From Acholoe squamosa (lineage: Eukaryota; Annelida; Polychaeta; Phyllodocida; Polynoidae): a stretch of DNA of 64,000 bases. The notes beneath the pieces were generated by a model, which saw nothing but the letters and a program-made list of their open reading frames with translations, was not told the origin of the DNA and ran no database searches. Below, piece by piece: positions 237-45,492 of the stretch. Each line of letters begins with the position of its first letter. Position 1 is the stretch's first letter. The stretch is taken from the NCBI GenBank assembly GCA_949317995.1, contig OX439050.1, positions 5,742,771 to 5,806,770 of the forward strand, given 5' to 3'. The translations under genes and the position numbers were made by a program.

Positions 237-1181
237 ATGGACAAAGAAAATATTTTGAAAAAGATTTATTTCACTCCTTCTCATCCTTCATCTTTTTCTT
301 CTGTTAAAAAATTATATGAAGCAGCTAAAAAAATAGATTAAAAAATAACGAAAAAGGACGTTCTAAATTTTCTCCGTAACACTAGAACTTATACTTCACA
401 TAAGAAAATAACATATAAATTTCTTCGAAGAAAAACAATAGTGAAAGGCATAAACGATCAATGGCAAATTGATTTAATAAGTATTTTTAACCTTAAAGAT
501 CAAAACGATGGAATAAAATATTTGTTAGCCTGTATAGATTGTTTTTCACGTTATGCTTATGTTGAACCTTTAGAGAACAAAACTGCATATGTCACTCTAG
601 ACAGCTTCAAAAAAATTTTGTTCAAAAGCAAAGTTAATCCCAACTTAATACAATTAGATGAAGGAAGCGAATTTAAAGGTGTTTTTCAAAAATTTTTAAA
701 AGAAAATGAGATAAAATTTTTCAGTACTTCTCAAGACACTAAATGTGCTATAGTAGAAAGATTCAATCGTACCATACAAGACAAAATATATAAATATCTT
801 TCTTTCAAAAAGAGTCTGAGATATATAGACGTTCTACAGGAGTTAGTTAAAAGTTATAATCATAATAAACATAGAACATTAGGAATAAGTCCTTCTGAAG
901 TAACCAAATCAAACAAAAAAAAAATATGGTTAAAGCAATACGGAAAATATTTGTACAGCAAAAGAATTAATCTGCCTTTTAAAGTAGGAGATAAAGTACG
1001 AATAAGTAAATATAAGACTGCTTTCAGGAGAGGGTATTCTTCTCATTCGAAAGAAGAAATATTTCAAATAGTATATGTTCTTAGAACATGGCCTGCTACT
1101 TATGTGTTAACAGACAAAAATAATGAAATATTGAGCGGTAGTTTTTATAAAGAAGAATTAAACAAAATAAAAGGAAAATAA
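237..1181 (+). pseudogene. Retroviral-type integrase (rve, DDE), broken by one stop codon
   Basis: The product would join element ends to host DNA. The frame starts at the ATG at 237 and aligns along its whole length with the intact integrase of element B, including the PSHPSSFSSVKKLY segment near the N terminus. A TAA at 339-341 stands where B has lysine, so translation is cut after 34 codons. Downstream the catalytic core is intact: the first Asp in WQIDLIS, the second in LDEGSEF, and the Glu in AIVERF. The C-terminal SH3-like segment (KVGDKVRISK) is also present. Re-initiation at an internal start could give a 246-residue core protein, but this would lack the N-terminal domain. Identification of the family is secure; loss of function is likely. 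Confidence 0.9.
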
Positions 1182-1184
1182 AAA

Positions 1185-1848
1185 ATGGAAGACATAGAAT
1201 TCCCTGTTTTCAATGCATGTATTAGAATTCCGTTTTCTATGATCATAGCAGGACCAAGCAACAGTGGAAAAACTACTTTTGTGTATGATCTATTAAAAAA
1301 TAATGAGCGAATAATAGAAAAAAAAAATAGACTATGTCATATGGTGTTATGGTCAAACCCCTCCTGCAAAAAAAGACTTCATGGAGGGGAAAAGCATAAC
1401 ATTTTTGAACGGTATTCCTTCTTCTTTTGATAAATATATAAAACCTGACCTTAATGGACTTGTTATTTTAGATGATTTAATGAAAGAATGTGGAAATAAT
1501 CCTGAAATAGGAAAACTTTTCACTCAAACATGTCATCATGAATCGATAAATGTTATATATATTTCACAAAATTATTATTCTGAAGGAAAAGAAAGGCAAA
1601 CTGTTAATAGAAATGCGACGTATTTAGTTATTTTTAATTCACCTTTAGATCAAACTGTCCCTCTAACATTAGGGAGAAAACTGTTGCCTAAAAATTATAA
1701 AACTTTCGTTAATATTTTTAATGAAGCAACTAGGAAACCACATTCCTATCTTTTAATAGATGGTCATCAAAAAACTCCTCAAGAATACAGATTTAAGAGC
1801 AACATATTTGACATAGGACAAGAGGTGTATATACCTAACAAAACATAA
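1185..1848 (+). pseudogene. FtsK/HerA-type genome-packaging ATPase, frameshifted
   Basis: Polinton and adintovirus ATPases of this type are thought to pump DNA into the capsid. The Walker A motif GPSNSGKT is near residue 27 and matches the intact copy in element B. After the isoleucine-rich stretch, the reading frame changes at a run of A residues near 1317-1327. From there the homologous sequence continues in another frame (CYGQTPPAKK onward). That frame includes the Walker B segment LVILDDLM and the conserved C-terminal DGHQKTPQ. The gene follows the integrase by three bases, as expected for a compact viral block. One frameshift explains the break; an assembly error in the homopolymer cannot be excluded. 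Confidence 0.88.
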
Positions 1849-3220: not shown

Positions 3221-3460
3221 ATGTATTCTAACGATTCACCTGAAGATATATATTATAAACATTTTTTAACTAAGCGATCTTATCCTTATGATGTACAGTA
3301 TGGAAAAGGATACTATTCTTTAACCCCCTTCGTAGGAAGCAGAAATCAAAAAGGTTATGGGCTAGGTGGTATTTTAAAAGGATTGTTTAAGACAGTTATT
3401 CCTTTGGTGAAACCTGTTGTGGCATCAGCCGCAAAAGGAATAGGAAAAAGAGCCTTAACG
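3221..3460 (+). pseudogene. pVI-like minor virion protein, 5' part, split by retrotransposon
   Basis: The 5' fragment encodes an N-terminal leader and then QKGYGLGGILKGLFKTVIPL, a Gly-rich amphipathic segment. The matching segment in the intact element B gene is QKGYGLGNIFAGLFKKVVPL. Such segments resemble the membrane-active N terminus of adenovirus protein VI, which helps the particle cross the endosome; this role is inferred. The frame runs to the ALT codons at the Ngaro insertion point and continues at 8803. Without the insertion the two parts would be collinear with the B gene. Confidence 0.8.
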
Positions 3461-3670
3461 GGTGAGACCAATCCTGATTGGTCTATGTATTGATACGGTC
3501 AGTACCACTACTACTCACCCACCTGCTACTCCTACACACACACACACACACACACTGCTACTCCTCCCTGAACATACCTGTGGGCAGTGACCCACTACTG
3601 CAGCCTGCCAGCCTAAGGGCACACACACATGGGACTCTTCCACTGCTTCAATTTTTTGTTTTTTTTTATG
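3461..3670 (+). repeat. Ngaro split direct repeat A1
   Basis: It begins GGTGAGACCAATCC and ends in a T-run before ATG. It is nearly identical to A2 at 8489-8689. Both contain a CA microsatellite, longer in A1. It acts as the left end of the element and probably holds the transcription start. Confidence 0.85.
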
Positions 3671-3674
3671 CATC

Positions 3675-5606
3675 ATGGTGGTTTGTTTGGTATGCCAACA
3701 GGCATACCATGGCAACAAAAAGCACTGCCCCAACTGTGGGGTGCTAAACCACAAACTCACGGAGGAGACCAGGAGTAATGCAGTTTTTCATGAGGAAGAA
3801 GGGGGAGACCAAGGAGCTTCCAATATGGCCACCCCCTTGGGAGAGAGAAGGCAGAGTAATACACAGCCAAAGTCACCAGAAGCTATTCTCCAGGAGAAGA
3901 TTGCTATAGCAGAAGAGAAGGCAGGACTACTCAGGAAAAAAGGTGACCTCTTAGCATTAGAAGAAAGGCTAGCCTTAATTGACTTAGAGAATGCAGAACT
4001 GGAGGAGGATTACAAAAAATCCCTCAAAGACATACAGCAGAAGCAGCAGAGTGCTGCACACAAGAGGAGGGGTGCATTCGTAAATTTTCATGATTTGACT
4101 GCACCTAACAGCAGCTATTACCAGGGAGAAACGTTTACGAACACACCCAGGAGCAGCAGCAGATACGCCGACGACCGAGCGGAGTACACAACATTTACGA
4201 ATGCAGCCAGCAGCGCCAAAGCCGAGGACGCCCGGACCTTGCCGAGCGCCTCCGAAGGCATATCCAACCCGAACACGGCCGTACACATACGGAGATACCC
4301 GAACGCCGCCGAAAACGGGCTCGGAGAGAGTCGGGGACGGTCGGCAGATGTACGGAGAATACCGAACGCCACTTCGGGTTTGTTCGGCGACGTAAACTCC
4401 TACAGCAGATTGAAAAAGAGCGGTCACGGCTTGGATTACGATACACACCAGAGAGCAAACGCAAGCGGCATATTAACCAACGAGGATATACCGAGCGCTG
4501 CCGACAGCCTAGGTCGGAAACTTTCGGATTACGTCGGCTCGGGCAAGCTCGGCAATGTTCGTGAACGCTCGGGAGTGCAAGATGGCGTTCCTTCCGCTTT
4601 CGCCGAGGGAGACAATTTGCAGCAGGAGTTTATGCTTTTTTTGGCTGGAAAACAGCAAAAATTGCTCAATCAGGCCAAGCAGAACCCAGTAGGCAGTGCT
4701 CCAGTCCCAACCACAGCAGCACAGGAGGTACCACAGCTGTATTACTTGGATAGGACACCCTACACTGGGTCTTTGCCTGACACACAACATCAACAACACA
4801 GGATCACACCACCCAAGCTTCCCCCCTCTGCTACCATCCAGGCTGGATTATCAACTGCAGGCCTGACAGCTGAGAATATGGGCGTGGAGGGGGACCTTGC
4901 CGGCTACCTGGATGCAAAGGACCAAGGTGACTTGTTATCCACTTTATTTAAGATAGGTGAAGCTTCTAAGAAAAAGAGGTCACAACACTGGTTAAGGCCA
5001 GATTACCACATTCCCACTGACAAAGTCTACTCTGATATGACATACAGAGAGCTAATATATGGTATGACATGTGTCCAGGAGAAGTTAGCTATTGCTAATT
5101 TACCACAGTGGTCTGCAAAAAGTTATGGTGACCATATGAGATTCGTAGCTAGGAAGGGTCTCAATGCCACTTATACCTCGAGTGCACTAGCTAAATATGA
5201 GCACGATCTCACTACTAGAGTGATTTCAGGGGAGTTACCCGGATTTCAGACAGCTGAGCACGCATCAGTCTCTGATAATTTGGGCTCCGATAACCTACAG
5301 GTGGTACAGGATTTGAAGGCTGAATTAGCCAGATTAAAAGCAGGTAACAAACAAGGCACTAAAGGTAAAGGCCCCTCTACTCAAAACAGAATCCATTGCC
5401 CTACGGATGTTTGTGCTTTGTTCAATTTCACTAGATGTTGGTATAACCCATGTAACAGGCAACACGTATGCGCGGTATGTAAGGGCCCCCACCCAGCAAA
5501 AGGGGGGTGCAAAAATCAGCCAACAACCACAAGCAGTGGAGCAAACAATAATGCGGGAGGGGGGTCAACCTTTTTCGCACCACCGATCCACTCCCGCGTA
5601 TCTTGA
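3675..5606 (+). CDS. gag: Ngaro-type Gag-like protein
   Basis: This 643-residue protein would coat the retrotransposon RNA. Residues 10-25 carry a short zinc-ribbon-like CxxC..CxxC segment (CLVCQQAYHGNKKHCPNCG). A charged helical stretch at about 65-130 looks coiled-coil. The middle (about 150-310) has imperfect repeats built around NA/PNA with Ser and Arg, and higher GC content than the rest. Residues 450-540 form a conserved-looking helical region (YRELIYGMTCVQEKL). Near the C terminus a Cys/His cluster, with CAVCKGPHPAKGGC at its end, resembles the zinc-knuckle-like end of DIRS-order Gag proteins. The frame ends in a TGA that is followed in the same frame by the RT region, so stop readthrough is possible. 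The gene begins just after repeat A1. Confidence 0.8.
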   Translation: MVVCLVCQQAYHGNKKHCPNCGVLNHKLTEETRSNAVFHEEEGGDQGASNMATPLGERRQSNTQPKSPEAILQEKIAIAEEKAGLLRKKGDLLALEERLALIDLENAELEEDYKKSLKDIQQKQQSAAHKRRGAFVNFHDLTAPNSSYYQGETFTNTPRSSSRYADDRAEYTTFTNAASSAKAEDARTLPSASEGISNPNTAVHIRRYPNAAENGLGESRGRSADVRRIPNATSGLFGDVNSYSRLKKSGHGLDYDTHQRANASGILTNEDIPSAADSLGRKLSDYVGSGKLGNVRERSGVQDGVPSAFAEGDNLQQEFMLFLAGKQQKLLNQAKQNPVGSAPVPTTAAQEVPQLYYLDRTPYTGSLPDTQHQQHRITPPKLPPSATIQAGLSTAGLTAENMGVEGDLAGYLDAKDQGDLLSTLFKIGEASKKKRSQHWLRPDYHIPTDKVYSDMTYRELIYGMTCVQEKLAIANLPQWSAKSYGDHMRFVARKGLNATYTSSALAKYEHDLTTRVISGELPGFQTAEHASVSDNLGSDNLQVVQDLKAELARLKAGNKQGTKGKGPSTQNRIHCPTDVCALFNFTRCWYNPCNRQHVCAVCKGPHPAKGGCKNQPTTTSSGANNNAGGGSTFFAPPIHSRVS

Positions 5607-7391
5607 TGTACAAATAATATTGACGGTGCCCATGATATTCCGGATTCCTACGGTTCCGCGGTCAATGTAACAACCGACAATTTACCAGACATTTATTGTG
5701 ATAGAGACTCGCTTGTGTGTACTTCGGACATATCAGAATTATTGTCAATTTATGTAAGCTATGCTCCATTGTGGGATATTAACTCCACCCATATCCTAAA
5801 AGGGGTCAGATCTCAAATGAAACCCGCAGGCTGGTTATCAATGCTTAGTGGAGGCCCTAATTCGGTTTATGGTACAAATGGTTGGGATTATGACGCCGCA
5901 TTCCTAATGGACGGCATAATGCACGGGTTTAAAGTAGTGGACCCAAACACACATATTAGTGAGTATAGCACTAAGAACTATGTACCCCAAGAAGCAAGGA
6001 ACTTCATTGATAACCTGCTAAAGACAGAAGTAGACCAAGGCAAATTGTCTATAGTCACAGCAGCACCTACTTGCATCCACGCCTTAGGTGCGGTTGAGAA
6101 AAGAGATGGCGGTTATAGACCGGTAACGGACGCCAGTAGACCAGAAGGTCTATCTATTAATTCACACATGAACGAGACATTCCACCACTTTAGTTACACT
6201 AGCATCGATGATGTGACCAAGGTGCTCCGACCCGGTATGTTCATGGCAGTCACAGACATTTCCGCAGCATACCGCTCTATTATGATTAGGCCAAGCGATA
6301 GGCAATTCCAGGGCCTACAGTGGACATTCGACTCACAGAAAGTGTATTTAGTGGACAATTTTGTGTCATTCGGCACTAGAATGGCTGCATTCCTCTTTAA
6401 TAGGATTACTGACAGCATAGCTCGTTATATGAGAGCTAACGGTTATTATTGCTTTAATTATCTCGATGACTTACTTACTATGGGTAACTCATATGCGGAG
6501 TGCCAAAAAGCACAGTTGTTTCTACATAGCACACTCCACTCGTTGGGTTTTTTCTTATCCTATAAGAAGGTTCTTTCACCTGCACAAGTTCAAATTTATC
6601 TAGGGATAGAAATTGACTCACTACAAATGTGCCTCAGACTACCGGAGAGCAAGATCAATAAATTGCACAGTGAGCTACGTTTCTTTGTAGGTCGTCGAAG
6701 GGCAACCAAGAAACAGCTGCGCCGTTTATGCGGGATCTTAGCACACTGCTCTACTTTAGTCAGGGGGGGCAGGACATTCTCTCACAGAGTCATAGGCATG
6801 TTATCTGCGTTCACGAGCACTAAAAGGTACATAACCCTCTCTACCGGGTTCTTCAAGGACCTAGACTGGTGGCTAAGATTCGCAAAGTGGTTTAATGGCG
6901 AAGCAAAAATTGTCAGCACTCTACCGTCCACAAAAAGTGACTTATACATGGACGCATCAGACAGGGGTTACGGTGTCAGGTACGGCAAGGACTGGATATG
7001 TGCAGGTTGGGGATGCAGGATCAGTATGAACATAGACAGTCATGGACACTGCCTCCCGCCACCTAGTCAATTCGTGCCTGAAAACATAAACATCAGGGAG
7101 CTATACCCCATCTTAATGGCGATTAATAGGTGGGGACCTTTGTGGCGCAATAGGAAAATTGTCTGTTACACGGATAACACCCATGTAGTAAGCGCACTGA
7201 ATAAGGGCAAAAGTACAAATACAAGAGCGATGGACTTCCTGAGAGAACTGTTTTGGCTTACAGCTCTTTATAACTGCCATATTGTAGCATTACATATCCC
7301 AGGACGACTTAATGTCCTTGCAGATGCTTTGTCAAGAGTGTTATATTACCCGCATAACCTTCCTATGTATCTATGTTGTAGCGGCGGCTAA
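5607..7391 (+). CDS. pol: Reverse transcriptase / RNase H of Ngaro-type element
   Basis: This enzyme copies the element RNA and degrades the template. The RT domain shows DISAAYRSI (motif with catalytic Asp) and YLDDLL near residue 250, counted from the GTG at 5715. RNase H follows with DLYMDASDRGYGV, the NIRELYPI helix, CYTDNTHVV and a final LADALSR. The frame is open from the base after the gag TGA and is in the same frame as gag. No ATG occurs before the RT domain, so it is probably made by readthrough of the gag stop; GTG at 5715 is only a formal start. The 3' end overlaps the recombinase frame by 80 bases. All key residues are present. Confidence 0.9.
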   Translation, partial: CTNNIDGAHDIPDSYGSAVNVTTDNLPDIYCDRDSLVCTSDISELLSIYVSYAPLWDINSTHILKGVRSQMKPAGWLSMLSGGPNSVYGTNGWDYDAAFLMDGIMHGFKVVDPNTHISEYSTKNYVPQEARNFIDNLLKTEVDQGKLSIVTAAPTCIHALGAVEKRDGGYRPVTDASRPEGLSINSHMNETFHHFSYTSIDDVTKVLRPGMFMAVTDISAAYRSIMIRPSDRQFQGLQWTFDSQKVYLVDNFVSFGTRMAAFLFNRITDSIARYMRANGYYCFNYLDDLLTMGNSYAECQKAQLFLHSTLHSLGFFLSYKKVLSPAQVQIYLGIEIDSLQMCLRLPESKINKLHSELRFFVGRRRATKKQLRRLCGILAHCSTLVRGGRTFSHRVIGMLSAFTSTKRYITLSTGFFKDLDWWLRFAKWFNGEAKIVSTLPSTKSDLYMDASDRGYGVRYGKDWICAGWGCRISMNIDSHGHCLPPPSQFVPENINIRELYPILMAINRWGPLWRNRKIVCYTDNTHVVSALNKGKSTNTRAMDFLRELFWLTALYNCHIVALHIPGRLNVLADALSRVLYYPHNLPMYLCCSGG

Positions 7392-8370
7392 GCTATGCGA
7401 AGATTTGGACATGAAAGCGGCAATAGCGAGAGCGCATGCTTGGAGCGTTTCCACCTGGAAAACTAAATGCAGCCAATGGAAAAGATTTATTGTGTTCTGT
7501 ACCATCTCTGCCTCTACAGTCGTACCCACTTCGGTTCAGACCATGTGTCGATATTCAGTGTACCTGTCTTCGGACTTGAAGTATAGCACTATAGACAATT
7601 ACGTGAGTGCAGTGATAAGTTTAAATGCACATTATGGCTACGACGTAGCTTGGATAAGGACAAATTTTATGTTTAAGTGTACTATGTCAGGTCTGCGCAG
7701 GATCCTCGGTGACCCTATACCCACTAGAGTCACACTGTCAGTTTCGCAACTCTTGGACATGTCTACAAGGGTGAATCTAGCAGTACCTGACCATTTAGCT
7801 ATGTGGGCGTGCATCGTTACTAGCTTCAGGACCCTTCTCAGGAAGAGCAACCTAGTAGTAGACAACGCAGCAAAAGCATCACCACACTTTCTAAGAAGAA
7901 AGTCTGTATCATTCACTAGCTGGGGTATGATTGTCACGGTTTCAAGCTCAAAAACAATCCAATTTGGACAGAGAGTCCACCACATCCCGGTCGTAGGAGT
8001 CCCTAACTCACCACTTTGTGCAGTATCTTTACTCAAGAGACACTTTGACGGTACCCCCACGACAGACCCTGAAGCACCCGCCTTCCTAGTGCGCAAAGGG
8101 AATTCGCTGGTCCCATTACAATACTCAGCACTACTTAAGTTCCTGAAACACCTACTAAGTACTATTGGGATAGATACAAACAGGGCCGGAATACATTCTC
8201 TGAGACGTTCAGGCGCTGCCTTTATGCACCTGTGCGGTATCCCACTAGAGGACATCAGATACACCGGTGACTGGACAAGCTTGTCTGCTCTTTTGTACTT
8301 AGCCAAACCACTTGGTACCAGGATAGATATAGACAATATAGTCGCCACGGCACTGAAAGCTACTTTTTAG
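7312..8370 (+). CDS. Tyrosine recombinase of Ngaro-type element
   Basis: This enzyme integrates the circular cDNA by site-specific-like recombination, replacing a retroviral DDE integrase. The C-terminal catalytic domain shows an Arg-containing helix (SFRTLLRKSNLVV), the HSLRRSGA motif that supplies His and Arg, and the final Tyr in LSALLYLAKP. The N-terminal part (HAWSVSTWKTKCSQWKRF) matches the DNA-binding SAM-like region of the family. The 352-residue length is normal. The ATG at 7312 lies inside the end of the RT frame in a different phase, the usual overlap in DIRS-order elements. No stop or frameshift is visible. Confidence 0.9.
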   Translation: MSLQMLCQECYITRITFLCIYVVAAAKLCEDLDMKAAIARAHAWSVSTWKTKCSQWKRFIVFCTISASTVVPTSVQTMCRYSVYLSSDLKYSTIDNYVSAVISLNAHYGYDVAWIRTNFMFKCTMSGLRRILGDPIPTRVTLSVSQLLDMSTRVNLAVPDHLAMWACIVTSFRTLLRKSNLVVDNAAKASPHFLRRKSVSFTSWGMIVTVSSSKTIQFGQRVHHIPVVGVPNSPLCAVSLLKRHFDGTPTTDPEAPAFLVRKGNSLVPLQYSALLKFLKHLLSTIGIDTNRAGIHSLRRSGAAFMHLCGIPLEDIRYTGDWTSLSALLYLAKPLGTRIDIDNIVATALKATF

Positions 8371-8417
8371 ACATACTAATGTGTAGAGTATCAGGACTAT
8401 ATCATTGTTCTGGTGTT

Positions 8418-8487
8418 GCCGGGTCATTTGGACTCAGTTTAGCCCAGACCGCAGCTACTCGTCCTTCATTACTGTTCCAGAATCAAT
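8418..8487 (+). repeat. Ngaro split direct repeat B1
   Basis: This 70-base repeat starts GCCGGGTCATTTGG and ends AATCAAT. It differs from B2 at 8733-8802 by one base seen by eye (A versus G in GCAGCT-A/G-CTCG). It immediately precedes A2, separated by two bases at most. Confidence 0.85.
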
Positions 8488-8488
8488 G

Positions 8489-8689
8489 GGTGAGACCAAT
8501 CCTGATTGGTCTATGTATTGATACGGTCAGTACCACTACTACTCACCCACCTGCTACTCCTACACACACACACACACACACTGCTACTCCTCCCTGAACA
8601 TACCTGTGGGCAGTGACCCACTACTGCAGCCTGCCAGCCTAAGGGCACACACACATGGGACTCTTCCACTGCTTCAATTTTTTTTTATG
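8489..8689 (+). repeat. Ngaro split direct repeat A2
   Basis: This is the second copy of the left-end repeat A1, with a shorter CA run. It lies between B1 and B2, giving the B1-A2-B2 order used for template switching and circle formation in Ngaro elements. Confidence 0.85.
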
Positions 8690-8732
8690 TAATTTCTCTG
8701 TATTAATATGTTATTACTTGTTAATAAATAGG

Positions 8733-9004: not shown

Positions 9005-9082
9005 CATAAAATAACCTGAGATTACTAAAAAGAAGAGAAAAACAAACAAATATTTTTGAAGTTTGTTCATCCTCTTAAAAAA

Positions 9083-10435
9083 ATGTCATTGTTAGATGAA
9101 GATCCTTGTTTTTGTGTAGCCTCGGAATTTGATTTTACTCATGTTCCTCCAACAGATATAAGTAGAGTTAAAACTGATTATGAAAAAGTTGAGCCCACTG
9201 CTTCTCCTAACAGCACTACAGCTTAATTCACTTTAAAATCTAAACATACAGATTTCATTTCTTTGCACGACAGTTTTATTCAAGTGTCTGGCAAAATATT
9301 AAAAGCCGACAAACAAAATCCAGATGCTCCAGCTAACGATGGGACAATAAACGATAAAGCTAAAGTTTTTCCAGTGAATTATTTTGCTTCTACTATGTTT
9401 AAAAATGTGAAACTTTCTATAGCAGGAATACGAATATCAGACAGCAATGATTTGCACGGATATAGATCTATTCTGGAATATATTTTAAGTTATGATCCAA
9501 CCACTGCTAAACACTTGGGAGCTTTGGCTATGTATTACAAAGACGATAAAGATTTCAACGAAGTAACAAATGTTAACAGCGACGATCATAATTCTGGAGT
9601 GAAAGCACGTTATAACAAAACTAAAAACGGGAAATTATTTGAAGTCATAGGACGAATTCATAATGACCTTTTTGCTCAGGTCAAAGTGTTACCTGGAGAT
9701 CTGCCTCTTACTATAGAATTTGATAGAGCAGACGAAGACTTTTGTTTGATGTCTAAATTAGGAACACAAAAATACATAATAGACATACAGGGCATACATT
9801 TATTCATAAAAAGAATAAGAGTGTCTGAAAAATTCCATAAAAAAATAATGGATGCTAGAATGGTTACTCCGTATTGGGATTATCCTGTAAACAAAATAGA
9901 CATGAAATACGTCACTTTTGGTCCTCAGAAATCTATTTTGCAAGCCTCTCATATAGTGAACAACACTCCTCTTCCAAAAAGAGTCATCATAGGGTTAGTT
10001 CATTTAGATGCCTTTACAGGAAGTCATAATCGTAATCCATTTCAATTTGAGCACTTCAAAGCAAAGGAAATAGAACTAAAAGTGAATGACGGTGGAACTC
10101 CTTTTTATCACTATGAATTAGATTACCCTAATGATTTATACAATATGGCCTACCTAGCTCTTATACGGTCTACAGGTTCAATTTTCAGAGACGATACGAT
10201 AGATATTTCTTTCGACAAATTCAAAAAAGGACATTGTCTTTACTGTTTTGACATATCTAAAAACGGAATAACGTCAGGCACATTTGAATATTCAGAAAAT
10301 GGTTCTTTAGGATTTGTCATAAAACTAGAAGAAGAATTAACCCATGGAGTAGCAGCTATCATATATTTAGAACATCATGAACTCCTGAGATTAGATTCTA
10401 GCAATATATTAAGAGCAAAATCTGAAATAGCATAA
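9083..10435 (+). pseudogene. Hexon-like (double jelly-roll) major capsid protein, one nonsense codon
   Basis: It aligns over its length with the intact element B capsid gene (449 residues). The start at ATG 9083 gives MSLLDEDPCFCVASEFDF, matching MSLIDESPCHCISSDLDF in B. A TAA at 9224-9226, codon 48, stands where B has Gln, so a single base change truncates the protein. Downstream all conserved blocks remain, including DFISLHDSFIQV, SDSNDLHGYRS, PGDLPLTIEFDRADE and YVTFGPQKSILQ. The family is the widespread F54H12.2-like protein of animal Polintons, which I take to be the hexon-like shell protein. A MetGly-free restart at the ATG-less region before 9263 would lose the first strand. An assembly error at one base is possible but other genes are broken too. 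Confidence 0.82.
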
Positions 10436-10444
10436 TTCCTAAAA

Positions 10445-10984
10445 ATGAATGGAGCGGAAATAAATTTTTTCTTGCAGAAAATTAAAAGAAAAAAAGAAGG
10501 AAATTATGGTGTTTATTCAGCTGACACTATACCTGCAGTGAAATCATTTCCTACAGGTTATGTAGTCAACACCGACAACAGTAACTTACCCGGAGAACAT
10601 TGGGTAGCTTTTTATTATGAAAAACCTCGTAAACTAGCTGAATATTTCGATTCATATGGCTTCAGTCCTATGCGAAAGAGTTTTCTGAAAGCTTTGCCTA
10701 AAAAATATAAATATTCCTCTCATTCTATTCAAGGACTTTTTTCTATGACTTGTGGTTTATATTGCTTGTTCTTTTTAGAAAAACAAGCTGAGAATAAGAC
10801 AATGCAACAAGTTATATCTAGCTTCACTTCAGATCCTGATTGGAATGACAGTAAAGTAAAACAATACTTTTTAAAGAAAAAACAAAATAATCGAAGCAAA
10901 AAGAAATCCTTGTTTTGTAACAAACAAATTTGTTCTACAAAAAATAATTTTCTAAGAACAACACAAAAAAGAAAAAAAGATTAA
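10445..10984 (+). CDS. Adenain-type cysteine protease
   Basis: This enzyme would cleave virion precursor proteins during maturation, as adenovirus protease does. The catalytic set can be read directly: His52 in GEHWVAF, Asp69 in EYFDSYG, Gln96 in SIQGL and Cys103 in TCGLYC. The copy in element B has the same residues at the same numbers. The 179-residue length is close to the family norm. The C-terminal 40 residues are Lys-rich, which could bind DNA. It begins nine bases after the capsid gene. The frame is intact despite the damage to neighbouring genes. Confidence 0.92.
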   Translation: MNGAEINFFLQKIKRKKEGNYGVYSADTIPAVKSFPTGYVVNTDNSNLPGEHWVAFYYEKPRKLAEYFDSYGFSPMRKSFLKALPKKYKYSSHSIQGLFSMTCGLYCLFFLEKQAENKTMQQVISSFTSDPDWNDSKVKQYFLKKKQNNRSKKKSLFCNKQICSTKNNFLRTTQKRKKD

Positions 10985-11549: not shown

Positions 11550-11617
11550 GAATGAACATCTTTCTCGTGTGAGACCTAAAAAATATATAATTTAAGATTA
11601 TTTCTCAAGTCTTAATC

Positions 11618-12070
11618 ATGGATACAAAAGAGAACAAAGTCATTTTTGAAGTAAAACGCAGTGAAATACTTGAAAAAATATGCTTACATCAAGGCACTAA
11701 TATATCTCTGTTAGAAGAAGAAAGACGTGAACACATTAATATCATAAAAGAGGAAGAAAAAAATAATCTCAATCTTACTTTACAATTAAGAGAAGCACGA
11801 AATGAAAATATGAATTTAATGGCTCACAGGAAGGCATACAACTTAGCTAAAGCAGAGAGAATATATAACATCAGGAGAGGTTCTTATCCGTATGGTCGTA
11901 CAGTAGCCGACGGTGATGACTCAGAAGAAGAAGGCAGTAAAATTGTAACAGACGGCGAAACTTGTGATGTGCCAGATTCTATGCCTTCTGATGTTTTAAT
12001 GGAGACTTATAGGAAAAAGCCAAACGAAGCTTTTCATTTAAATTCAGAAAGAAAACATGAAAGTGATTAA
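11618..12070 (+). CDS. Coiled-coil protein with conserved acidic C-terminal motif
   Basis: The function is unknown. Residues 15-90 form a long charged helix (repeated Glu, Lys, Leu) likely to be a coiled coil. A basic HRKAYNLAKAERIYNIRR segment follows, then YGRTVADGDDSEEE. Element B has a 130-residue homologue in the same position with QKRAATLARYNMEYERK and YGKIVCDGENDESE, so the last part is the best-conserved region. A TGAGACC motif about 50 bases upstream resembles the recurrent upstream motif of this block. The product is 150 residues and the frame is intact. Confidence 0.7.
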   Translation: MDTKENKVIFEVKRSEILEKICLHQGTNISLLEEERREHINIIKEEEKNNLNLTLQLREARNENMNLMAHRKAYNLAKAERIYNIRRGSYPYGRTVADGDDSEEEGSKIVTDGETCDVPDSMPSDVLMETYRKKPNEAFHLNSERKHESD

Positions 12071-12140
12071 GAAATAAAAACATAGATGAGATAAGTGAAC
12101 AAACAGACTTTATGTGAACATTGATCTGCGTCAAAGTAAC

Positions 12141-12389
12141 ATGAACAATTGTTCTGATTGGAAGCCTTCGCTAGAAGACGGGGTGTGTCCTGATTGCATA
12201 CATAAAATAGAAACCCTTGAAGAAACAAGAAAAAGGCAACAAAACCAAGTTCGCATTCTTAGAGCAGAGAGAAAAAAGAATCAAGAAATAATCAAATCTT
12301 TAGGAAACAAAAATAATATTCTTGTGCAACGAATCACAGAAAAACAAGAGAAACTTTTGTCTGGCTTCATGAGCAGAACACTACGCTGA
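12141..12389 (+). CDS. Small coiled-coil protein with CxxC
   Basis: The ATG at 12141 is preferred over an upstream GTG because it follows a TGAGATAAG motif by about 50 bases. The 82-residue product has an N-terminal Cys pair (CPDC) after a Cys/Trp segment and then a continuous Arg/Lys/Glu-rich helix, probably a coiled coil (RILRAERKKNQEIIKSL). No counterpart is visible in element B. It ends two bases before the next start. No function can be assigned. Confidence 0.55.
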   Translation: MNNCSDWKPSLEDGVCPDCIHKIETLEETRKRQQNQVRILRAERKKNQEIIKSLGNKNNILVQRITEKQEKLLSGFMSRTLR

Positions 12390-12390
12390 T

Positions 12391-13038
12391 ATGGGAAAGT
12401 ACACTTTTAAAATAAAAAAACTGTTGAAACACGCAAACTGGGAAGACAATGAAGCCATTAAATACATAAAATCTAAAAAAGAAAAAATAACTTGCAACAA
12501 TTCTTTCTTGAAACTTCTCTTGCAACATTTCGAACAGGTTTTAAGGCATAGACAAATGATATGTTTCACTTTTTACCTTTTAGAAAACGTGTTTGACAAA
12601 ACAGATAAAATGTGTTTAACAGAACGAATAATGATGCATGACTTATCTAAGTTTTCAATGAGAGAAGCCATAGGTTACACCTTTAAGTTCCATACTGAAA
12701 ATGGACCAAAAAATTCCCAAGAAAAAACAACTTGGGAAAATGCTTTATTTCATCACTATGAAAACAATGATCATCATCCTGAATATTACAGAGAAGGAAA
12801 TATGGGAAAATATGCTTTAATTGAAAGTGTGATAGACATGTTAGCTTGTCATGCAGAACGAGATCTGAAGCCAGAAGAAATAAATGTTCATGGTATTTTA
12901 GACGGAGATCTTTCTATCACCAATCTTTTGGACATAAATCCTATATACTTAGAAAGATATACTGAAGAAGATAAAGAAAAAGTGAAAGAATATCTGTCTT
13001 CGTGGAAAGATATTTTGTCTTGCAACTTATCTAAATAA
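12391..13038 (+). CDS. DUF5662-like protein (putative metal-dependent HD-type hydrolase)
   Basis: The 215-residue product contains the pattern typical of DUF5662 proteins of phages and large DNA viruses: MMHDLSKFSMREAIGY near residue 85, ALFHHYENNDHHPEYYRE near residue 120, and an ESVIDMLACHAER helix after it. The clustered His and Asp residues probably bind metal, as in HD-domain enzymes; the reaction is not established. The N-terminal half contains a helix with His-Arg (VLRHRQM), also usual in this family. It follows the coiled-coil gene almost without gap, so the two may be co-transcribed. Element B has no equivalent gene, so it was gained in A or lost in B. Confidence 0.75.
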   Translation: MGKYTFKIKKLLKHANWEDNEAIKYIKSKKEKITCNNSFLKLLLQHFEQVLRHRQMICFTFYLLENVFDKTDKMCLTERIMMHDLSKFSMREAIGYTFKFHTENGPKNSQEKTTWENALFHHYENNDHHPEYYREGNMGKYALIESVIDMLACHAERDLKPEEINVHGILDGDLSITNLLDINPIYLERYTEEDKEKVKEYLSSWKDILSCNLSK

Positions 13039-13043
13039 AAAAA

Positions 13044-13435: not shown

Positions 13436-14041
13436 ATGCCTTTACCTACTTATTACTTTCAAGATGATTTAGGATATTCAGATATCTTTCTTCAAAAAAT
13501 CTCTGTATCGTTAGCACGTCAATGGATGACCTTAGGAGTATATCTTGGCATCCCTCATGCTAAACTTGAAAGCATGAACAAGACGAAAACTCCAACTGCT
13601 ATGGGCATAGAGATGCTGAATAAATGGTGGAGAGAAGTTCCTTACTACTTACGAACAGAAGAACTGATGACAAGTTTAAAGGAAAACCACAGAATAGACT
13701 TGGTGGAATTCACTGAAAATTTCTTCAAAGAAAAAAAACTAGAAGAGTATGACGTGGAATCGACCTCCGTGCAAATGTATTTCAGCTTATTGAGTGAAAA
13801 AATGTCAAGAGACTGGAAGGACATAGCTACATATCTACATATCACGTCTGACGAAAGAGGAACAATATCGTCCCAGCCCGAACAAGACATAGCTCAATTA
13901 ACCTTCAATGTCTTAAAAATGTGGCAAAGATCTAAGTACAGTGCTACTCATCAACTGATGAAAGCAGTACACGACATGAAAAGAAATGATGTGCTAAACA
14001 TGATATTCCTTGAATTCGATAAAAGAACAGGAACAAACTGA
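13436..14041 (+). CDS. Tandem death-domain protein
   Basis: The 201-residue product consists of two death-domain-like repeats. The first, about residues 14-98, shows LARQWMTLGVYLGIPHAKLE, then EMLNKWWRE and a SLKENHRIDLVEF helix. The second, about 108-195, shows MSRDWKDIATYLHI, then LKMWQRSKY and MKRNDVLNMIF. The conserved Trp after the first helix, the L..W pattern of helix 4 and the acidic or polar 'R.DL' last helix fit death domains such as those of FADD and ankyrins. Death domains pair with each other in apoptosis and innate immune signalling, so a viral copy may act as a decoy; this is inference. A diverged homologue occupies the same place in element B. Confidence 0.8.
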   Translation: MPLPTYYFQDDLGYSDIFLQKISVSLARQWMTLGVYLGIPHAKLESMNKTKTPTAMGIEMLNKWWREVPYYLRTEELMTSLKENHRIDLVEFTENFFKEKKLEEYDVESTSVQMYFSLLSEKMSRDWKDIATYLHITSDERGTISSQPEQDIAQLTFNVLKMWQRSKYSATHQLMKAVHDMKRNDVLNMIFLEFDKRTGTN

Positions 14042-14256
14042 AAATGAAAAACTGTCTTTACACATGTGACAATCAAAATAAAATCATATAAAAAATTATT
14101 TCATTTTGTTTGTTTGGTTATTTACTTACTTGAGAATCATAACAATAGGCATCACATCATGTCATATAAAACTGAACGAAAATATCTGTTCTAAAATACA
14201 GTAAAATAGCAGGTTCCTTCTCTCCTACTGAAGAGGAAAATAACATAGGGATTCAA
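14042..14256. other. Intergenic stretch with lost 5' end of dUTPase-like gene
   Basis: No complete gene is seen. From 14176 the frame of the next gene is already open and reads KIAGSFSPTEEENNIGIQ, which looks like the N terminus of a dUTPase but lacks an ATG. This suggests the original start has been lost. Confidence 0.5.
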
Positions 14257-14661
14257 ATGTACAGTTCATATAACCATACTGTTCCTAATAATACAGCATG
14301 TACAATTACAACAGAAGTTAAAGTTGCTATCCCTAAAGGTTATTATGGTATAATTTTACCTCTATGCAAATCAAGGAAACATAACTTTGTGTTTATCAAC
14401 CAAAAAATAATAGACGAAGATTACAGAGGGTATATTACCATTGTTTTATTTAACTTCGGAGAAGAAGACCTAAAAATAAAAAGTGGTGATGCTGTTGCGC
14501 GACTTGTTTTACAAAAAATTTATCCTATAAAATTAGAAGAACGTTCTAAGCTTGAAAACACTGAAAAAGGTGAAAAACTCTCTCAATTAGCTTACAGCAA
14601 AATATATGAAGAAATTTACAATGAAAATCTTAAATATTACAGCAAAGATCGTCTTAAATGA
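14257..14661 (+). pseudogene. Degenerate dUTPase-like protein (first of two)
   Basis: Trimeric dUTPases convert dUTP to dUMP and keep uracil out of DNA. This copy keeps the order of the fold: IPKGYYGIILPL, then KIIDEDYRGYITIVLFNFG, then GDAVARLVLQKI and a TEKGEKLSQ end. However, the segment equal to the PKSGLA motif of the second copy reads KSRKHNF, so the uracil- and phosphate-binding residues of that motif are missing. The N-terminal part lies upstream of the first ATG. It is therefore either a decayed enzyme or a derived non-catalytic dUTPase-fold protein. It sits directly before an intact-motif copy, implying tandem duplication. Confidence 0.7.
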
Positions 14662-14735
14662 ACTAAAACAAAGAAAACATCTCTGTGAATAGGGTTATAT
14701 TAAACAACAAAACAACTGAAATAACGTTCAGCAAA

Positions 14736-15513
14736 ATGGCACGTTGTCAAGATTCTTTCTATATAACTCTTGTAAAAGACAAACCAAATACACTGTTAGT
14801 AACGACATGCCAAAAATCTGCTTTACTGCCTGCCTCACCTATTCTCCAACCTGTTATGCATTATGTCAAAGCATCAACAAAAGCATTGAAGCCAACCAGA
14901 TCCACAAAAAAATCTGCAGGGTTTGATTTATATAGTGCTTATGATTATATTATTCCTGCTAAAGAAAAAAAAATTGGTACAAAGTGATATAATACTTTGC
15001 ATACCTACAGGATGCTACGGTCGCATAGCACCAAAATCAGGACTTGCTCTTAATCATTTCATCGATGTAGGAGCAGGGGTAATAGATGAAGACTACAGAG
15101 GAAAAATTGGTGTTTTGCTGTTTAATTTTGGAAATGAAGTCTTCGAAATAAAACATGGAGATCAAATAGCTCAAATAATATTAGAAAAAATTCTCATCCC
15201 TGAGCTAGAAGAAGTATGTACACCTGATAAAACCGAAAGAAATAATCAAGGTTTTGGATCAGGCAAAAAGATATCTGCTTCACTGAAAGAAAAAAACGAC
15301 TGTGAAGAAAGTGATTCTGGAGAAAGTGACTCGTCTGAAGAATCAGATATAGAACAATCTCATTCAGCTGATGAAACGTCGTCTGAAGAACAAGAATTTT
15401 ATTCAGCGGAAGAAGAACCAACTGATGAAAAAGGTTCTGATGAAATCGACCCCTCCAAAAATGAATTAATGTCTTTAGAGGAATTCTTAAAGTTGATTCT
15501 AACAAACAACTAG
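14736..15513 (+). pseudogene. dut: dUTPase with acidic C-terminal extension, frameshifted at an A-run
   Basis: Catalytic motifs are recognisable in order: [11 protein letters not shown] (motif 1), [10 protein letters not shown] (motif 2), [21 protein letters not shown] (motifs 2-3, including the catalytic Asp), [12 protein letters not shown] and a C-terminal NNQGFGSGK that closes the active site. Motif 1 lies in one frame and the rest in another; the shift is at a run of A residues near 14968-14977. About 60 residues of unrelated sequence precede motif 1. An acidic Ser/Glu-rich tail of about 70 residues follows the enzyme domain. The frame shift could be decay, sequencing error or slippage. 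No dUTPase gene is seen in element B. Confidence 0.82.
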
Positions 15514-18430: not shown

Positions 18431-18432
18431 GG

Positions 18433-32850: not shown

Positions 32851-33828
32851 ATGAAGCTTATGGGTGAACAAAAAATGGCTCACTCAGATGACTTTTATGT
32901 TACTCTACCTTCTAATACTATTCATTCATCTCGGATTAATAAAACAAGTCATTTTTTTGTAGAAATTCCTGGAAAATTTCATTTAGAAGGTCATTGGGAG
33001 GTGGCCATAGTAGAAATAAACCTTCCTGTATCCTGGTACAATATTCCACAGGATCCTCCACAAGATCGAACTTTTGCTATTTACAGAAAAGAAATGGGGG
33101 TCAATGATGAATTACATGTATTAGAAGAAGGAGAAATAGACACTGTTAGAACAGACATGAGCTTTCACACTAAAATGATGCCATATGGAAATTATGGTAA
33201 TATAGAGAATTATATAGATGTAATGAATAAGTTAATGAAATCAATAGAGTTAGCCGAAAAAAATTTAGATTTTTTTCATTTGGCTAGAGAGCCTTACATT
33301 AGTATAGAAAAAGAAAATTTAAAGCCTGTTTTACATGTAGCAAGGGGAGATACTGTGTGGATGCCTTCCTCTTTGTCTGATATTCTTTGCTTAACAAATG
33401 CAGAAGGAGGTATTAAAGATGAAACTGATTCAAAAGTAACAGGTTACTATGGCCTTCCTTTAGAATCCATAGATGATTATAATAATTTATTATTTCAAAA
33501 AAAAATACATAAACATTATGCTTCTTATAAAGCAACAGGAGTACCTTCTTTAAGTTCTCGTTCTTCAAATATTTATTTATATACCAATATAGTTTCTAAT
33601 GAAGTTGTTGGAAATGTTCAAGTTCCTCTTTTAAGAGTTATAAGATGTAATGGCTTGTTTGGAGAAGATTTTAAAATGATATTTACTTCTCCCTATTATA
33701 AAAAAGTTAAAATGTCTGAGATACACGAAATAGAAATAGAAATAGTTGATGACCAAGGAAAACTTATAAAATTTGAGTATGGCAAAGTATTTGTAGTACT
33801 TCACTTTCGCCGTTGTAAACTCAGATAA
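32851..33828 (+). CDS. Putative virion-associated protein (SDDFYVTLPSNT family)
   Basis: The 325-residue product starts MKLMGEQKMAHSDDFYVTL. An internal Met at residue 9 (32875) may be the real start because related proteins in animal Polinton and adintovirus genomes begin near DDFYVTLPSN. A conserved block HLEGHWEVAIVEINLPVSW follows. The fold is probably beta-rich. I know the family only as a frequent neighbour of PolB in aquatic-invertebrate elements; an outer-capsid or fibre-like role is a guess. It overlaps the polymerase start by one base (ATGA overlap), implying coupled expression. A TGAGAT motif lies just before the gene. Confidence 0.6.
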   Translation: MKLMGEQKMAHSDDFYVTLPSNTIHSSRINKTSHFFVEIPGKFHLEGHWEVAIVEINLPVSWYNIPQDPPQDRTFAIYRKEMGVNDELHVLEEGEIDTVRTDMSFHTKMMPYGNYGNIENYIDVMNKLMKSIELAEKNLDFFHLAREPYISIEKENLKPVLHVARGDTVWMPSSLSDILCLTNAEGGIKDETDSKVTGYYGLPLESIDDYNNLLFQKKIHKHYASYKATGVPSLSSRSSNIYLYTNIVSNEVVGNVQVPLLRVIRCNGLFGEDFKMIFTSPYYKKVKMSEIHEIEIEIVDDQGKLIKFEYGKVFVVLHFRRCKLR

Positions 33829-36800
33829 TGAATCGAAGAAATGGTTTCAGGAATATTGCAATAGAATATAATTTGGTCCCTAAAATATATAATCATGACT
33901 TAGAATTTTTTTTAAGATATATATCAAACAGAGTTACATCTAAAATAAAAAAGTGGATGTTAAAGCATGGTGGAGTTAAGTTCCAATTAGGTCTTAATAC
34001 ATTTTTAGCCAAATATAAAATAGAAACTAACCAACATTTTGAAATAAAACCTTGGTTTCAAAGTCCAGTAGCTGTAATTCTAAATGTAAAATCTATAGAA
34101 GAAAAAGTTTATGAAGCCATCAGAATCATTTCTGCTTTTTTTGATTCTTTTATTCAACTAGGATCTGGATGGTTTTTAAAAGAAATTATATGTTTGCGAA
34201 TTTCTATTTATAGATATAATCCTTTGGGAGGTTATAAGCCTTCTGATATAGACAGTATTTTGTTTAAGAAAAGATCATTGCTTAATATTAAAGGAGCAGG
34301 AAATAAATGTTTTCTTTTTAGCATATTAGCTGCCTTGTTTAAAAGTAAAACAAATGCAAACAGAGCAAGCACTTATTTACCTTACTTGCAAAGTTTAAAT
34401 ATATCCTGTCTTTCTTTTCCTGTAAAACTTGGTCAAATAGCTAAATTTGAAGAAAAAAACCACATAACTGTAAATGTTTTTGGTATATTTAAAAATAAAA
34501 ACGAAAATTATCATCCATATCCTATGTATATTTCTACTAATTTTAATGAAGAAAAACATTTAAATCATGTTAACCTTTTACTATATCGAGAACATTATTG
34601 GCTTATAAGAGACATGAGTAAGTTTGTTAGACCCTTTTTTTATAAGAAAACAAGATATTATTGTCATAAATGTTTAACTTCTTTTTTAAAAAAAAATGAT
34701 CTCCTTTTTCATACCCAAAAAACCTGTGACAATAATAGCTTCTTTGGTCAATCATATATAATGCCCATAAAAGGAAGCAAAGTTGAATACAAAGATTATT
34801 CTAAACAAATTAAAAACCCTTTTATCATATATGCAGACTTTGAAACATTTAATCAAAAATTAAAAGTGCCCGTTAAAAGGGGAAATATCACAATAAAAAC
34901 TAGACAAAAATTAAATGCTATAGGTGCAGTTTTAATTTCAAAGTATGAGAAATATTCACAGACACCATTTTTATATATAGGACGTTATGTTTTAAAAAAA
35001 TTTGTGAATTACTTATATCAAAAAAGAGCAGAGATATCTCATATTTTAGATAAAAATAGGAAGCCGATTTTTTTAACAATGGAAGACATAAGCAGAATTC
35101 ATAAACAAACAAAATGTTATTTGTGTCATGTTTCATTTAAAAATAAAAAAATTAAAAAAGTATTGGACCATGCCCATATAGGTCGAGAAGGCAAGGGGCG
35201 AGATGTTAACTATGCTTGCAATAGATGTAATTTAAGCCATTCTTCTCTTAGAATGGACACATTGAAAATACCAATTGTTATGCATAATGCTATGAATTTT
35301 GATTTACATTTTATAGTAAAAAAGCTCTATAAATATATTCAAAATGATGATATAAGAGTTCTTCCTAGATCTTCTGAAAAATTTTTAACTTTACAATTTG
35401 AAAATTTTTACTTTTTAGATTCATTCCAATTTTTATCTGCCTCTTTGTCACACTTGGCAGATCTTTTAGCTGCTAATAATGTAGATAATTTCATAGAAAC
35501 CAAAAAAAACTTAACCAAAAAGGAATTATTACCTTATGTAATAAAAAAGGGAATTATGTGTTATGATTACATAGATTCATGGGAAAAATTAAAAGAAAAA
35601 AATCTACCTGTTAGATCCCATTTCTATAATAAGCTAACTAAAGAAAATATATCTAAAGAAGCTTACACTCATGCTAAAACAATGTTTAATTTGTTGAATT
35701 GTAAATCTTTAGGAAGCTATTTAAAAGAATACCTTAAAATTGATGTTTTACTATTATGCGATGTATTTGAATCTTTTAGAGAAAGAAGTTTAGAAAATTA
35801 TGGTTTAGATCCTGCGAAATTCCTTACTGCTCCATCTCTTAGTTATCAGGCTATGTTAAAACACACAAAGATACAGCTTGATCTTTTAGATGATATAGAT
35901 AAACATAACTTTATTGAAAAAGGTATACGCGGAGGTATTACAAACGTTGTACAACGATATGTTAAAGTAAAAAACGATTCCCAACATTTGGTTTATTATG
36001 ATTGTAATAATCTTTATGGTCATGCTATGTGTCAAGAACTTCCCACTCATGATTTTGTTTGGTTACCGTCTTCTAGTTATTCTAAGTTTAATGTATTAGA
36101 AGTAGCTAACAACAGTGATGAAGGCTATATATTAGAAGTTACTTTATTGTATCCAAGGCATTTACATTTTTTGCATGATGATTTTCCACTGGCTCCAGAA
36201 AAAAAAGAGATATTTCATGATGAGTTATCTCCATATGCTAAAGATTTATTACATAAATTAAATATTAAATACAAAAAAAGTGGGAATAAGCTAATATGTG
36301 ATTTAAAAGAGAAAAAAAATTATGTTGTTCACTATAAGAATTTAAAACTATACCTTAAATTAGGGATGAAAATAGTTAAAATACATAAAATTCTATCTTT
36401 TAAACAATCTGCTTGGATGAAAAAATATATTGACTTTAATAACACTAAACGGAGAGAATCAACTTCTTCTTTCGATAAAGCATTTTTTAAGTTAATGACT
36501 AATTCATGTTTTGGAAAATGCATGGAAAATGTTAAAAAAAGGAAAAATCTAACCCTTACTTCATGTAAAATTAAATGTAAAAAACTTATTCGAAAACCTA
36601 CTTTTCATTCCTTGTATTTTTTAGACAAAGATTATGTAGGAATACAAAATGTTAAAGAACAAGTATATTTGGACAAGCCGATATATCTTGGATTTACTAT
36701 ATTAGAATTATCTAAAATGCACATGTTTTGGTTCCATTATAAGGTAATGTTACCTACTTTTTCTTTATCCGTTATTAACTTGTTATATTCAGACACAGAT

Positions 36801-37319
36801 TCATTCATATATTTTATAGAAGATGAACATTTTATTGAAAAGCTGAAAAGTATAAAAGAATATTTTGATTTTTCAAATCTTAAACTAGATCACCCCTTGC
36901 ACTGTACTGAGAATTGTAGAGTATTAGGAAAATTTAAGGATGAAAGTGAGGGAAAAAAAATAAAAGAATTCATTGGTTTACGTCCTAAGATGTATTCTAT
37001 TTTATTTGAATCAAATAAAGAAACAAAAAGAGTAAAAGGTGTTAAAAAAAGTAATATAAGAGATATGAGACATGACCAGTTTAAAAAAGTATTGTTTAAA
37101 AAGAAATTTCATCGAGAATCATATCATGCTATGAGAAGTTACAATCATAAAGTACATGTAATAAAAGAAAATAAACTGGCTCTTTCACCTTTTGAAGATA
37201 AACGTTGGCTACAAAAAGATGGAATCAAATCTTTTGCTTATGGGAATCATATGATCAATGTGCGTAAAAGACATAAATATTTTGATTCATCTGTAAATTT
37301 AAAAAAAAAAAAATTTTAA
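33828..37319 (+). CDS. polB: Protein-primed family B DNA polymerase (Polinton PolB)
   Basis: This 1163-residue enzyme would copy the element from protein primers at its ends. Domains, in order: an N-terminal segment with GNKCFLFSILAAL near residue 158 and HYWLIRDM near 257, which looks like an OTU-type cysteine protease fold; a zinc finger (YYCHKCLTSF...KTC) near 280-302; the exonuclease with ADFETF near 336; an endonuclease-VII-like zinc insert (CYLCHV...LDHAHIG...CNRCN) near 428-467; and the polymerase domain with YYDCNNLYG (motif A, about 722), LMTNSCFGK (motif B, about 888) and YSDTDSF (motif C, about 986). All catalytic Asp residues expected are present. The end is Lys-rich. The gene overlaps the preceding stop and looks intact. 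Confidence 0.95.
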   Translation: MNRRNGFRNIAIEYNLVPKIYNHDLEFFLRYISNRVTSKIKKWMLKHGGVKFQLGLNTFLAKYKIETNQHFEIKPWFQSPVAVILNVKSIEEKVYEAIRIISAFFDSFIQLGSGWFLKEIICLRISIYRYNPLGGYKPSDIDSILFKKRSLLNIKGAGNKCFLFSILAALFKSKTNANRASTYLPYLQSLNISCLSFPVKLGQIAKFEEKNHITVNVFGIFKNKNENYHPYPMYISTNFNEEKHLNHVNLLLYREHYWLIRDMSKFVRPFFYKKTRYYCHKCLTSFLKKNDLLFHTQKTCDNNSFFGQSYIMPIKGSKVEYKDYSKQIKNPFIIYADFETFNQKLKVPVKRGNITIKTRQKLNAIGAVLISKYEKYSQTPFLYIGRYVLKKFVNYLYQKRAEISHILDKNRKPIFLTMEDISRIHKQTKCYLCHVSFKNKKIKKVLDHAHIGREGKGRDVNYACNRCNLSHSSLRMDTLKIPIVMHNAMNFDLHFIVKKLYKYIQNDDIRVLPRSSEKFLTLQFENFYFLDSFQFLSASLSHLADLLAANNVDNFIETKKNLTKKELLPYVIKKGIMCYDYIDSWEKLKEKNLPVRSHFYNKLTKENISKEAYTHAKTMFNLLNCKSLGSYLKEYLKIDVLLLCDVFESFRERSLENYGLDPAKFLTAPSLSYQAMLKHTKIQLDLLDDIDKHNFIEKGIRGGITNVVQRYVKVKNDSQHLVYYDCNNLYGHAMCQELPTHDFVWLPSSSYSKFNVLEVANNSDEGYILEVTLLYPRHLHFLHDDFPLAPEKKEIFHDELSPYAKDLLHKLNIKYKKSGNKLICDLKEKKNYVVHYKNLKLYLKLGMKIVKIHKILSFKQSAWMKKYIDFNNTKRRESTSSFDKAFFKLMTNSCFGKCMENVKKRKNLTLTSCKIKCKKLIRKPTFHSLYFLDKDYVGIQNVKEQVYLDKPIYLGFTILELSKMHMFWFHYKVMLPTFSLSVINLLYSDTDSFIYFIEDEHFIEKLKSIKEYFDFSNLKLDHPLHCTENCRVLGKFKDESEGKKIKEFIGLRPKMYSILFESNKETKRVKGVKKSNIRDMRHDQFKKVLFKKKFHRESYHAMRSYNHKVHVIKENKLALSPFEDKRWLQKDGIKSFAYGNHMINVRKRHKYFDSSVNLKKKKF

Positions 37320-39099: not shown

Positions 39100-39114
39100 G
39101 TGTTTAATTTTAAT

Positions 39115-44454: not shown

Positions 44455-44458
44455 TAAA

Positions 44459-45407: not shown

Positions 45408-45492
45408 AAGAGAAGTAATATCATATGAGAAACTAGGATGAGATTAAAAGCAAAAGCCTTCTTCATTCAAAAGTAATACAAAGTTTATTGAA

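Follow-up and report, generated by a model that had tools for sequence, protein, structure and literature searches.

The 64,000-nucleotide stretch of the Acholoe squamosa genome analysed here (contig OX439050.1, positions 5,742,771 to 5,806,770; hereafter the window) contains two Polinton/adintovirus-like elements, A and B, each carrying an open gene for a protein with two death domains (tandem-DD gene; Table 1). Element A runs from the window start to ~16.3 kb and is interrupted at ~3.5-8.7 kb by a DIRS-like retroelement. Element B occupies ~27.9-47.9 kb and has open PolB-like, integrase, ATPase, PX-like, capsid, protease, transmembrane (TM)-like, coiled-coil (CC)-like, and DD genes. An initial annotation of the sequence had proposed both DD frames and had described the integrase, ATPase, and capsid frames of A as broken; both observations are confirmed.

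The encoded protein consists of two death domains, with nothing further recognised. The Pfam Death profile PF00531, which the initial annotation had named as a check, matches both whole proteins above its cut-off of 22.6 bits (A 55 bits, B 48 bits), in two stretches each. When the halves are taken separately, the scores are 20.9 (E 3.9e-4, just below the cut-off) and 38.5 for the N- and C-terminal halves of A, and 24.1 and 31.7 for those of B. The helix-2 Trp and the helix-4 LxxW that had been noticed in both repeats are unchanged across all four repeats of A and B, as is an RxD near the C-terminal end (the helix numbering is the one we assume for death domains). A profile search of the PDB returned FADD at 3.3e-8 and also ankyrin, RIPK1, and PIDD. 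Structure prediction, likewise suggested for both proteins, was informative in part: the best structural matches are the death domains of FADD, RIPK1, ankyrin, and TRADD, and the antiparallel six-helix bundle of a death domain is found, but the single-sequence model of B, with a pLDDT of 43, was unusable. No death-effector-domain (DED) profile was listed by the Pfam scan to E 10, in which Death and bDLD3 were listed and HMMER filters drop most weak matches. A stop-free run of 202 aa did not occur in any of 200 first-order Markov copies of 8701-16300.

The two DD proteins are related (E 9e-22) and 28% identical, compared with 66% for the integrase, 59% for the capsid, 55% for the protease, and 31% for the CC-like gene, in line with the low identity reported at the outset. 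Outside this genome, no match was obtained in a protein database search with the A protein or with the A+B alignment, in the GTDB contigs with the capsid alignment, in the PDB with the capsid profile, or in BFVD at E ≤ 0.001, and the IMG/VR scans (PolB, DD, two capsid alignments, a distant capsid relative, the integrase, and a six-row DD alignment) confirmed no relative.

Within the genome (1.48 Gb searched), the gene is present in many nearly identical copies. Only the best candidates were scored (~150 for the DD queries), so the counts are lower bounds. The A-type DD gives at least 150 matches at 98% identity or more, window copy included, 149 of them stop-free (2051 candidates). The B-type DD gives 78 full-length matches at the same level, again including the window copy, one of them with a stop; these are followed by broken copies, two matches at 74%, and many at 27-35%. 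Across 2.6-3.4 kb, 30 B loci match the window DNA at 98.9-100% identity, two of them exactly, one being the window itself. Nine A loci match the window copy at 97.4-97.9%, and 11 A loci differ pairwise by 0.1-2.3%, except for L063-L065, which differ by 7.6% over a longer stretch. The low DD divergence among A copies is not used here as evidence, because similarity of the DD was the criterion for selecting L022-L030; L063 and L065, not selected in this way, show 5 and 6 differences of 606. The A-type capsid fragment occurs at least 103 times, stop-free over the queried part in all cases, and the other 102 copies have longer open frames than that in the window. Element A of the window is thus a decayed representative of a young family in which many copies are open. 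The intact DD frame of A, which the initial annotation had considered notable amid broken neighbours, is therefore unremarkable, the chance of its intactness being ~0.7. The spacer that precedes the A DD gene (13039-13435) differs by 5.8-7.1% from 11 copies, compared with 0.2-2.2% for the adjacent DUF5662 gene and 0.2-1.0% for the DD gene, which suggests a divergent or recombined promoter region.

The DD gene is linked to virus genes. A full-length DD lies downstream of the B-type capsid on the same strand in 72 of 84 capsid matches, at 1600-1700 nt in 66 of these; ten others have a broken or partial DD (eight of these capsids being stop-free), and two have none, although one of the latter, C8:53753263, has a 74%-type DD 2.4 kb downstream. 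This count used the 78 full-length and 15 broken or partial DD matches, leaving aside the two 74% DD matches, repeated second pieces of broken copies, 10 capsid matches at 61%, and one capsid fragment. Several of the broken B-type DD copies break at identical residues, suggesting that elements have spread without an intact DD gene, which weighs against its being indispensable.

Selection on the protein was assessed from the ratio of nonsynonymous to synonymous divergence (dN/dS) by NG86. The comparison between A and B, as first proposed, is saturated (dS 1.89), and for this reason other families, described below, were used. The ratio is 0.08 for A against family F1 (dN 0.137; dS 1.75, near saturation), 0.17 for A against F2, 0.49 for B against L069, its 74% relative, and 0.46-0.57 among L070, L071, and L074. 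The range of 0.08-0.57 shows that the DD protein has been maintained, more loosely in some lineages.

Among the remaining genes, the adenain-like protease and the packaging ATPase are of kinds typical of adintoviruses. The B capsid matches the double jelly-roll profile PF21738 with E 1e-3, below the cut-off. The PolB-like gene of B, for which an N-terminal OTU-like domain would be the adintovirus trait, was recognised by pattern from putative PolB motifs, and it gave no Pfam polymerase match and no PDB match. The Pfam scan of the B integrase listed no chromodomain, the C-terminal trait of an adintovirus integrase, and no terminal inverted repeats of the Polinton/Maverick kind were found for B between 24500-28500 and 46700-53500 (10-base seeds; the ends of B are not fixed). 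A capsid tree of 29 rows places A together with P0004-P0006 (100/99) and B together with P0003 (100/98); A and B thus represent two lineages. The initial annotation had put the DD gene at the same place downstream of the CC-like gene in both elements, which holds approximately: in B it follows that gene, and in A a small frame (12099-12389) and the DUF5662 gene intervene. The retroelement inside A matches a tyrosine-recombinase profile with E 9.5e-4, below the cut-off.

Table 1. Features of the window (positions in the window; profile and identity values as obtained in this work)
Feature	Position	Strand	Remarks
Integrase, A	342..1181	+	5' part broken; 65.6% to B integrase
Packaging ATPase, A	1182..1848	+	split over two frames; pieces 61% and 51% to B
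DIRS-like retroelement inside A	3457..8700 (ends approximate)	+	99% direct repeats at 5-kb spacing; RVT_1 E 3.6e-10
Major capsid gene, A	9029..10435	+	in-frame stop in window copy; 58.9% to B capsid
Adenain-like protease, A	10436..10984	+	PF00770 E 4.5e-7, above cut-off
Coiled-coil-like gene, A	11591..12070	+	30.6% to B counterpart, E 2e-6; "coiled coil" is the label of the initial annotation
DUF5662 gene upstream of DD, A	12373..13038	+	PF18907 E 4e-21
Tandem death-domain gene, A	13436..14041	+	201 aa
dUTPase 1, downstream of A DD	14176..14661	+	PF00692 E 4.5e-22
dUTPase 2, A	14667..15513	+	broken frame; PF00692 E 2.5e-30 in 14890-15510
PolB-like gene, B	33819..37319	+	YSDTDS, DCNNLY, DFET and N-terminal GNKCFLF, pattern match only
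Integrase, B	39097..40098	+	PF00665 rve E 1.2e-9, above cut-off
Packaging ATPase, B	40070..40756	+	PF04665 Pox_A32 E 1e-7, above cut-off
Major capsid gene, B	43105..44454	+	27 homologues, ≤77% identity
Adenain-like protease, B	44450..44986	+	55.5% to A; PF00770 E 6e-3, below cut-off
Coiled-coil-like gene, B	45448..45885	+	adjoins DD on its upstream side
Tandem death-domain gene, B	46097..46693	+	198 aa; PF00531 E 1.4e-12

Three further features of the window were recorded. A diverged gene pair (30741-31661 and 31887-32828, 24% identical) has Cys/His patterns that look RING-like by eye and gave no Pfam match above cut-off. A 1.5-kb stretch at 17373-18906 has 111-bp inverted ends (99%) with 58-bp repeats inside, and satellite arrays of 38-bp and 21-bp units lie at 57230-59731.

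Related tandem-DD genes occur in several other families. In F1 (DD 76% identical to A; 11 loci of 3.2 kb each, L006-L008 and L013-L020), the order is DUF5662-DD-dUTPase-dUTPase, the DUF5662 homologue being 64-65% identical to that of A. F2 has a 219-aa DD, 57% identical to A (L061, L062, L064), and the A and F2 loci L061-L065 share the order protease-TM-CC-DUF5662-DD, with the capsid present in four of the five; at an F2-like locus, L012, the DD is in two frames. The dUTPases, two adjacent genes in A (14176-15513), lie further downstream and in a different order in the F2 relatives (L061:5083-7786). The 74% relative of the B DD is flanked by homologues of B's neighbours. A further set of DD frames of 228 aa and 257-320 aa, 41-45% identical to the protein of locus L072, makes up ~85 of 150 matches, counted by eye; in the one copy read of each size, the DD is followed immediately by a packaging ATPase (33% to B, E 7e-35), accompanied by a PX-like gene.

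In another group of relatives, the neighbour of the DD gene is of the anti-apoptotic BIR type. A BIR gene lies just downstream of the DD at L070 (E 2.8e-16), L072 (1.5e-12), and L074 (4.6e-18), and at L071 one follows the tandem DD, recognised by similarity. No BIR domain was found among the scanned A and B frames of the window, those of A having been scanned in part. The DNA of L070, L071, and L074 agrees to 87-93% along most of the 2 kb read, which marks these loci as repeats. All 15 DD matches used from the L072 family have a helicase-like frame 3.5-4.1 kb downstream (15 of 150 DD and 19 of 70 helicase matches; a 97-residue DD fragment, C11:33917555, was omitted). For this frame the matches are papillomavirus E1 (3.4e-5) and polyomavirus large T (LT; 3.5e-4), both below the curated cut-offs. 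L075:3072-3818 and the L072 family are multi-copy DNA that combines an E1/LT-like helicase frame with BIR and tandem-DD genes; elsewhere, at C12:8657557-8679760, 14 helicase-like frames stand in tandem, most of them spaced at ~1.5 kb and all with at least one stop. Among 89 frames in 13 kb at an L072-family locus, only the DD resembles the window element genes, the one further match being of 32 residues to a chance frame inside the window retroelement. The tandem-DD gene is therefore carried by two or more kinds of dispersed DNA, and its spread over these carriers may have come about either by exchange or by old common descent.

The element DD genes are also related to an intron-split gene on contig C17. 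At this locus, L066, two death-domain exons are joined in frame across a 299-nt GT-AG intron; against PF00531 the first domain scores 20.2 bits, below the cut-off, and the second 47.2 bits. In a tree of 25 rows, which omits HL009 and the L074 repeats, one branch (91/83) separates first from second repeats, both for nine dispersed tandem-DD genes and for L066. The nine dispersed second repeats group without L066 (93/89), and the first-repeat side also takes in five other presumed host domains. Both supports are below the level starred by the tree tool (95/80). L001-L004, L009, L010, and L066 are presumed to be host death-domain genes. Most likely, the element DD gene was captured from a host tandem-DD gene, with the direction of transfer from host to element suggested by these relationships. 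A search with the first domain of L066 returned one match at 53%, 25 at 46-49%, and then matches at 33-39%, many with the 219-aa frame. The 25 are death-domain frames of 126-153 aa, of which 22 lie within ~1.5-281 kb of the end of a long contig (e.g., C10:71433-71684, C12:78567611-78567862, and C8:84145557-84145808) and three on C21, C38, and C40; by their positions, they appear to form a subtelomeric death-domain family.

Taken together, we consider it probable, with considerable reservation, that the tandem-DD gene is a host-derived accessory gene of integrating Polinton/adintovirus-like DNA viruses, whose product would act as a decoy for, or cap, host death-domain complexes. The ancestor would have been a host gene with two death-domain exons, taken up without its intron and diversified in the elements. 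Expressed upon infection or reactivation, the protein would bind host death-domain adaptors or receptors (surfaces of the FADD, RIPK, PIDD, or ankyrin type) through homotypic contacts. With two death domains and no effector, the protein can only bind, nucleate, or cap; it may thus cap or sequester a signalling assembly, blunting a caspase or NF-kB-type output and keeping the cell alive for the time that replication needs. The role that we judge somewhat more probable than all others together is, by analogy, suppression of host death-domain signalling, because of the BIR neighbours at related loci and the known viral death-fold decoys. The proposal in the initial annotation of a decoy or regulator of such signalling is accordingly supported in part; the target and the direction of the effect are what we infer. 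In the 2 kb read at L070, L071, and L074, three of the four BIR-linked loci, no other element gene was seen, and our confidence was lowered slightly for this reason.

The same absence of an effector would also suit an agonist, since a two-domain protein could nucleate host assemblies as well as cap them, turning on NF-kB-like survival signalling or triggering death for release; KSHV vFLIP activates IKK, and PMC4817188 describes the activation of NF-kB by vFLIP. The BIR neighbours favour the blocking of death, though NF-kB activation also fits survival, and we regard an agonist as unlikely, though it is the main rival. We attach a lower probability to a structural, non-signalling role, in which the fold would be a scaffold, for example together with the CC-like protein in the particle, or in replication. 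In A, F2, and B, the DD gene comes behind those for the capsid, protease, TM, and CC proteins, as would suit such a role, but in the single copies read of the 228-aa and 257-320-aa families the DD is ahead of the ATPase, and the L072 family combines it with a BIR gene and a helicase-like frame; an accessory role accounts for these arrangements better. Domestication, with the host keeping some copies as antiviral factors against reactivation or superinfection, is quite improbable: open copies are very many and death-domain proteins are, as we understand it, host immune components, but these copies are young and near-identical, so that their open frames need no host selection. Finally, presumed host death-domain genes do occur in this genome, but that the DD gene is a host gene merely neighbouring the elements is contradicted by its fixed distance and strand relative to the capsid in 66 of 84 cases and by the uninterrupted, near-identical dispersed copies.

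If the decoy interpretation is correct, Polinton-like elements that multiplied recently face host cell-death or Toll/TNF-type immunity, and the several families with their probable host relative offer a large natural series for the evolution of decoys; the BIR genes next to some tandem-DD genes hint at two adjacent arms against cell death. A broader proposal, to which we give an even chance, is that the host-captured gene serves as a common accessory module, having passed between two or more unrelated types of dispersed DNA element within one animal (Polinton/adintovirus-like in two gene orders, and E1/LT-like helicase elements, in which it is paired with BIR), has multiplied to hundreds of copies, if not more, and may outnumber the host DD genes.

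Viral death-fold decoys are known mainly as DED, CARD, or pyrin pieces in herpes-, pox-, and iridoviruses. The viral FLIPs (KSHV vFLIP K13, poxvirus MC159) are tandem DED decoys, whereas in the present case Pfam gives Death, not DED, and the gene is carried by Polinton/adintovirus-like elements. FADD, RIPK1, and TRADD share the fold, and FADD, RIPK1, and PIDD the sequence profile, but in contrast to FADD, TRADD, RIPK1, and PIDD, no DED, kinase, TRADD-N, or LRR is recognised here, only two death domains. The 'Death domain-containing protein' of Marseillevirus LCMAC202 (A0A481YZ84, BFVD) is alike in name, but has 658 aa and matches weakly (E 0.31, probability 0.51). With adintoviruses and Polintons (Mavericks), the elements share the rve integrase, adenain-like protease, packaging ATPase, capsid, and PolB-like genes. 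In the available part of PMC11071296, an rve (retrovirus-like) integrase belongs to the definition of adintoviruses, and anti-apoptotic homologues and/or candidate oncogenes are attributed to most adintoviruses associated with mammals. Our literature search returned no paper joining adintovirus or Polinton with a death domain, though an earlier mention is possible, e.g., in the founding adintovirus paper, and a wider search found no tandem-DD element in the titles or abstract openings among the matches listed. A comparable case of a host-like death-fold adaptor piece in a DNA virus is ORF 006R of bivalve iridovirus 1 (CARD plus RHIM, bivalve-like), together with other iridovirus CARD proteins, as far as described in the available part of PMC12452177; those are CARD/RHIM proteins of non-integrating viruses, whereas the present gene encodes a tandem DD in an integrating element.
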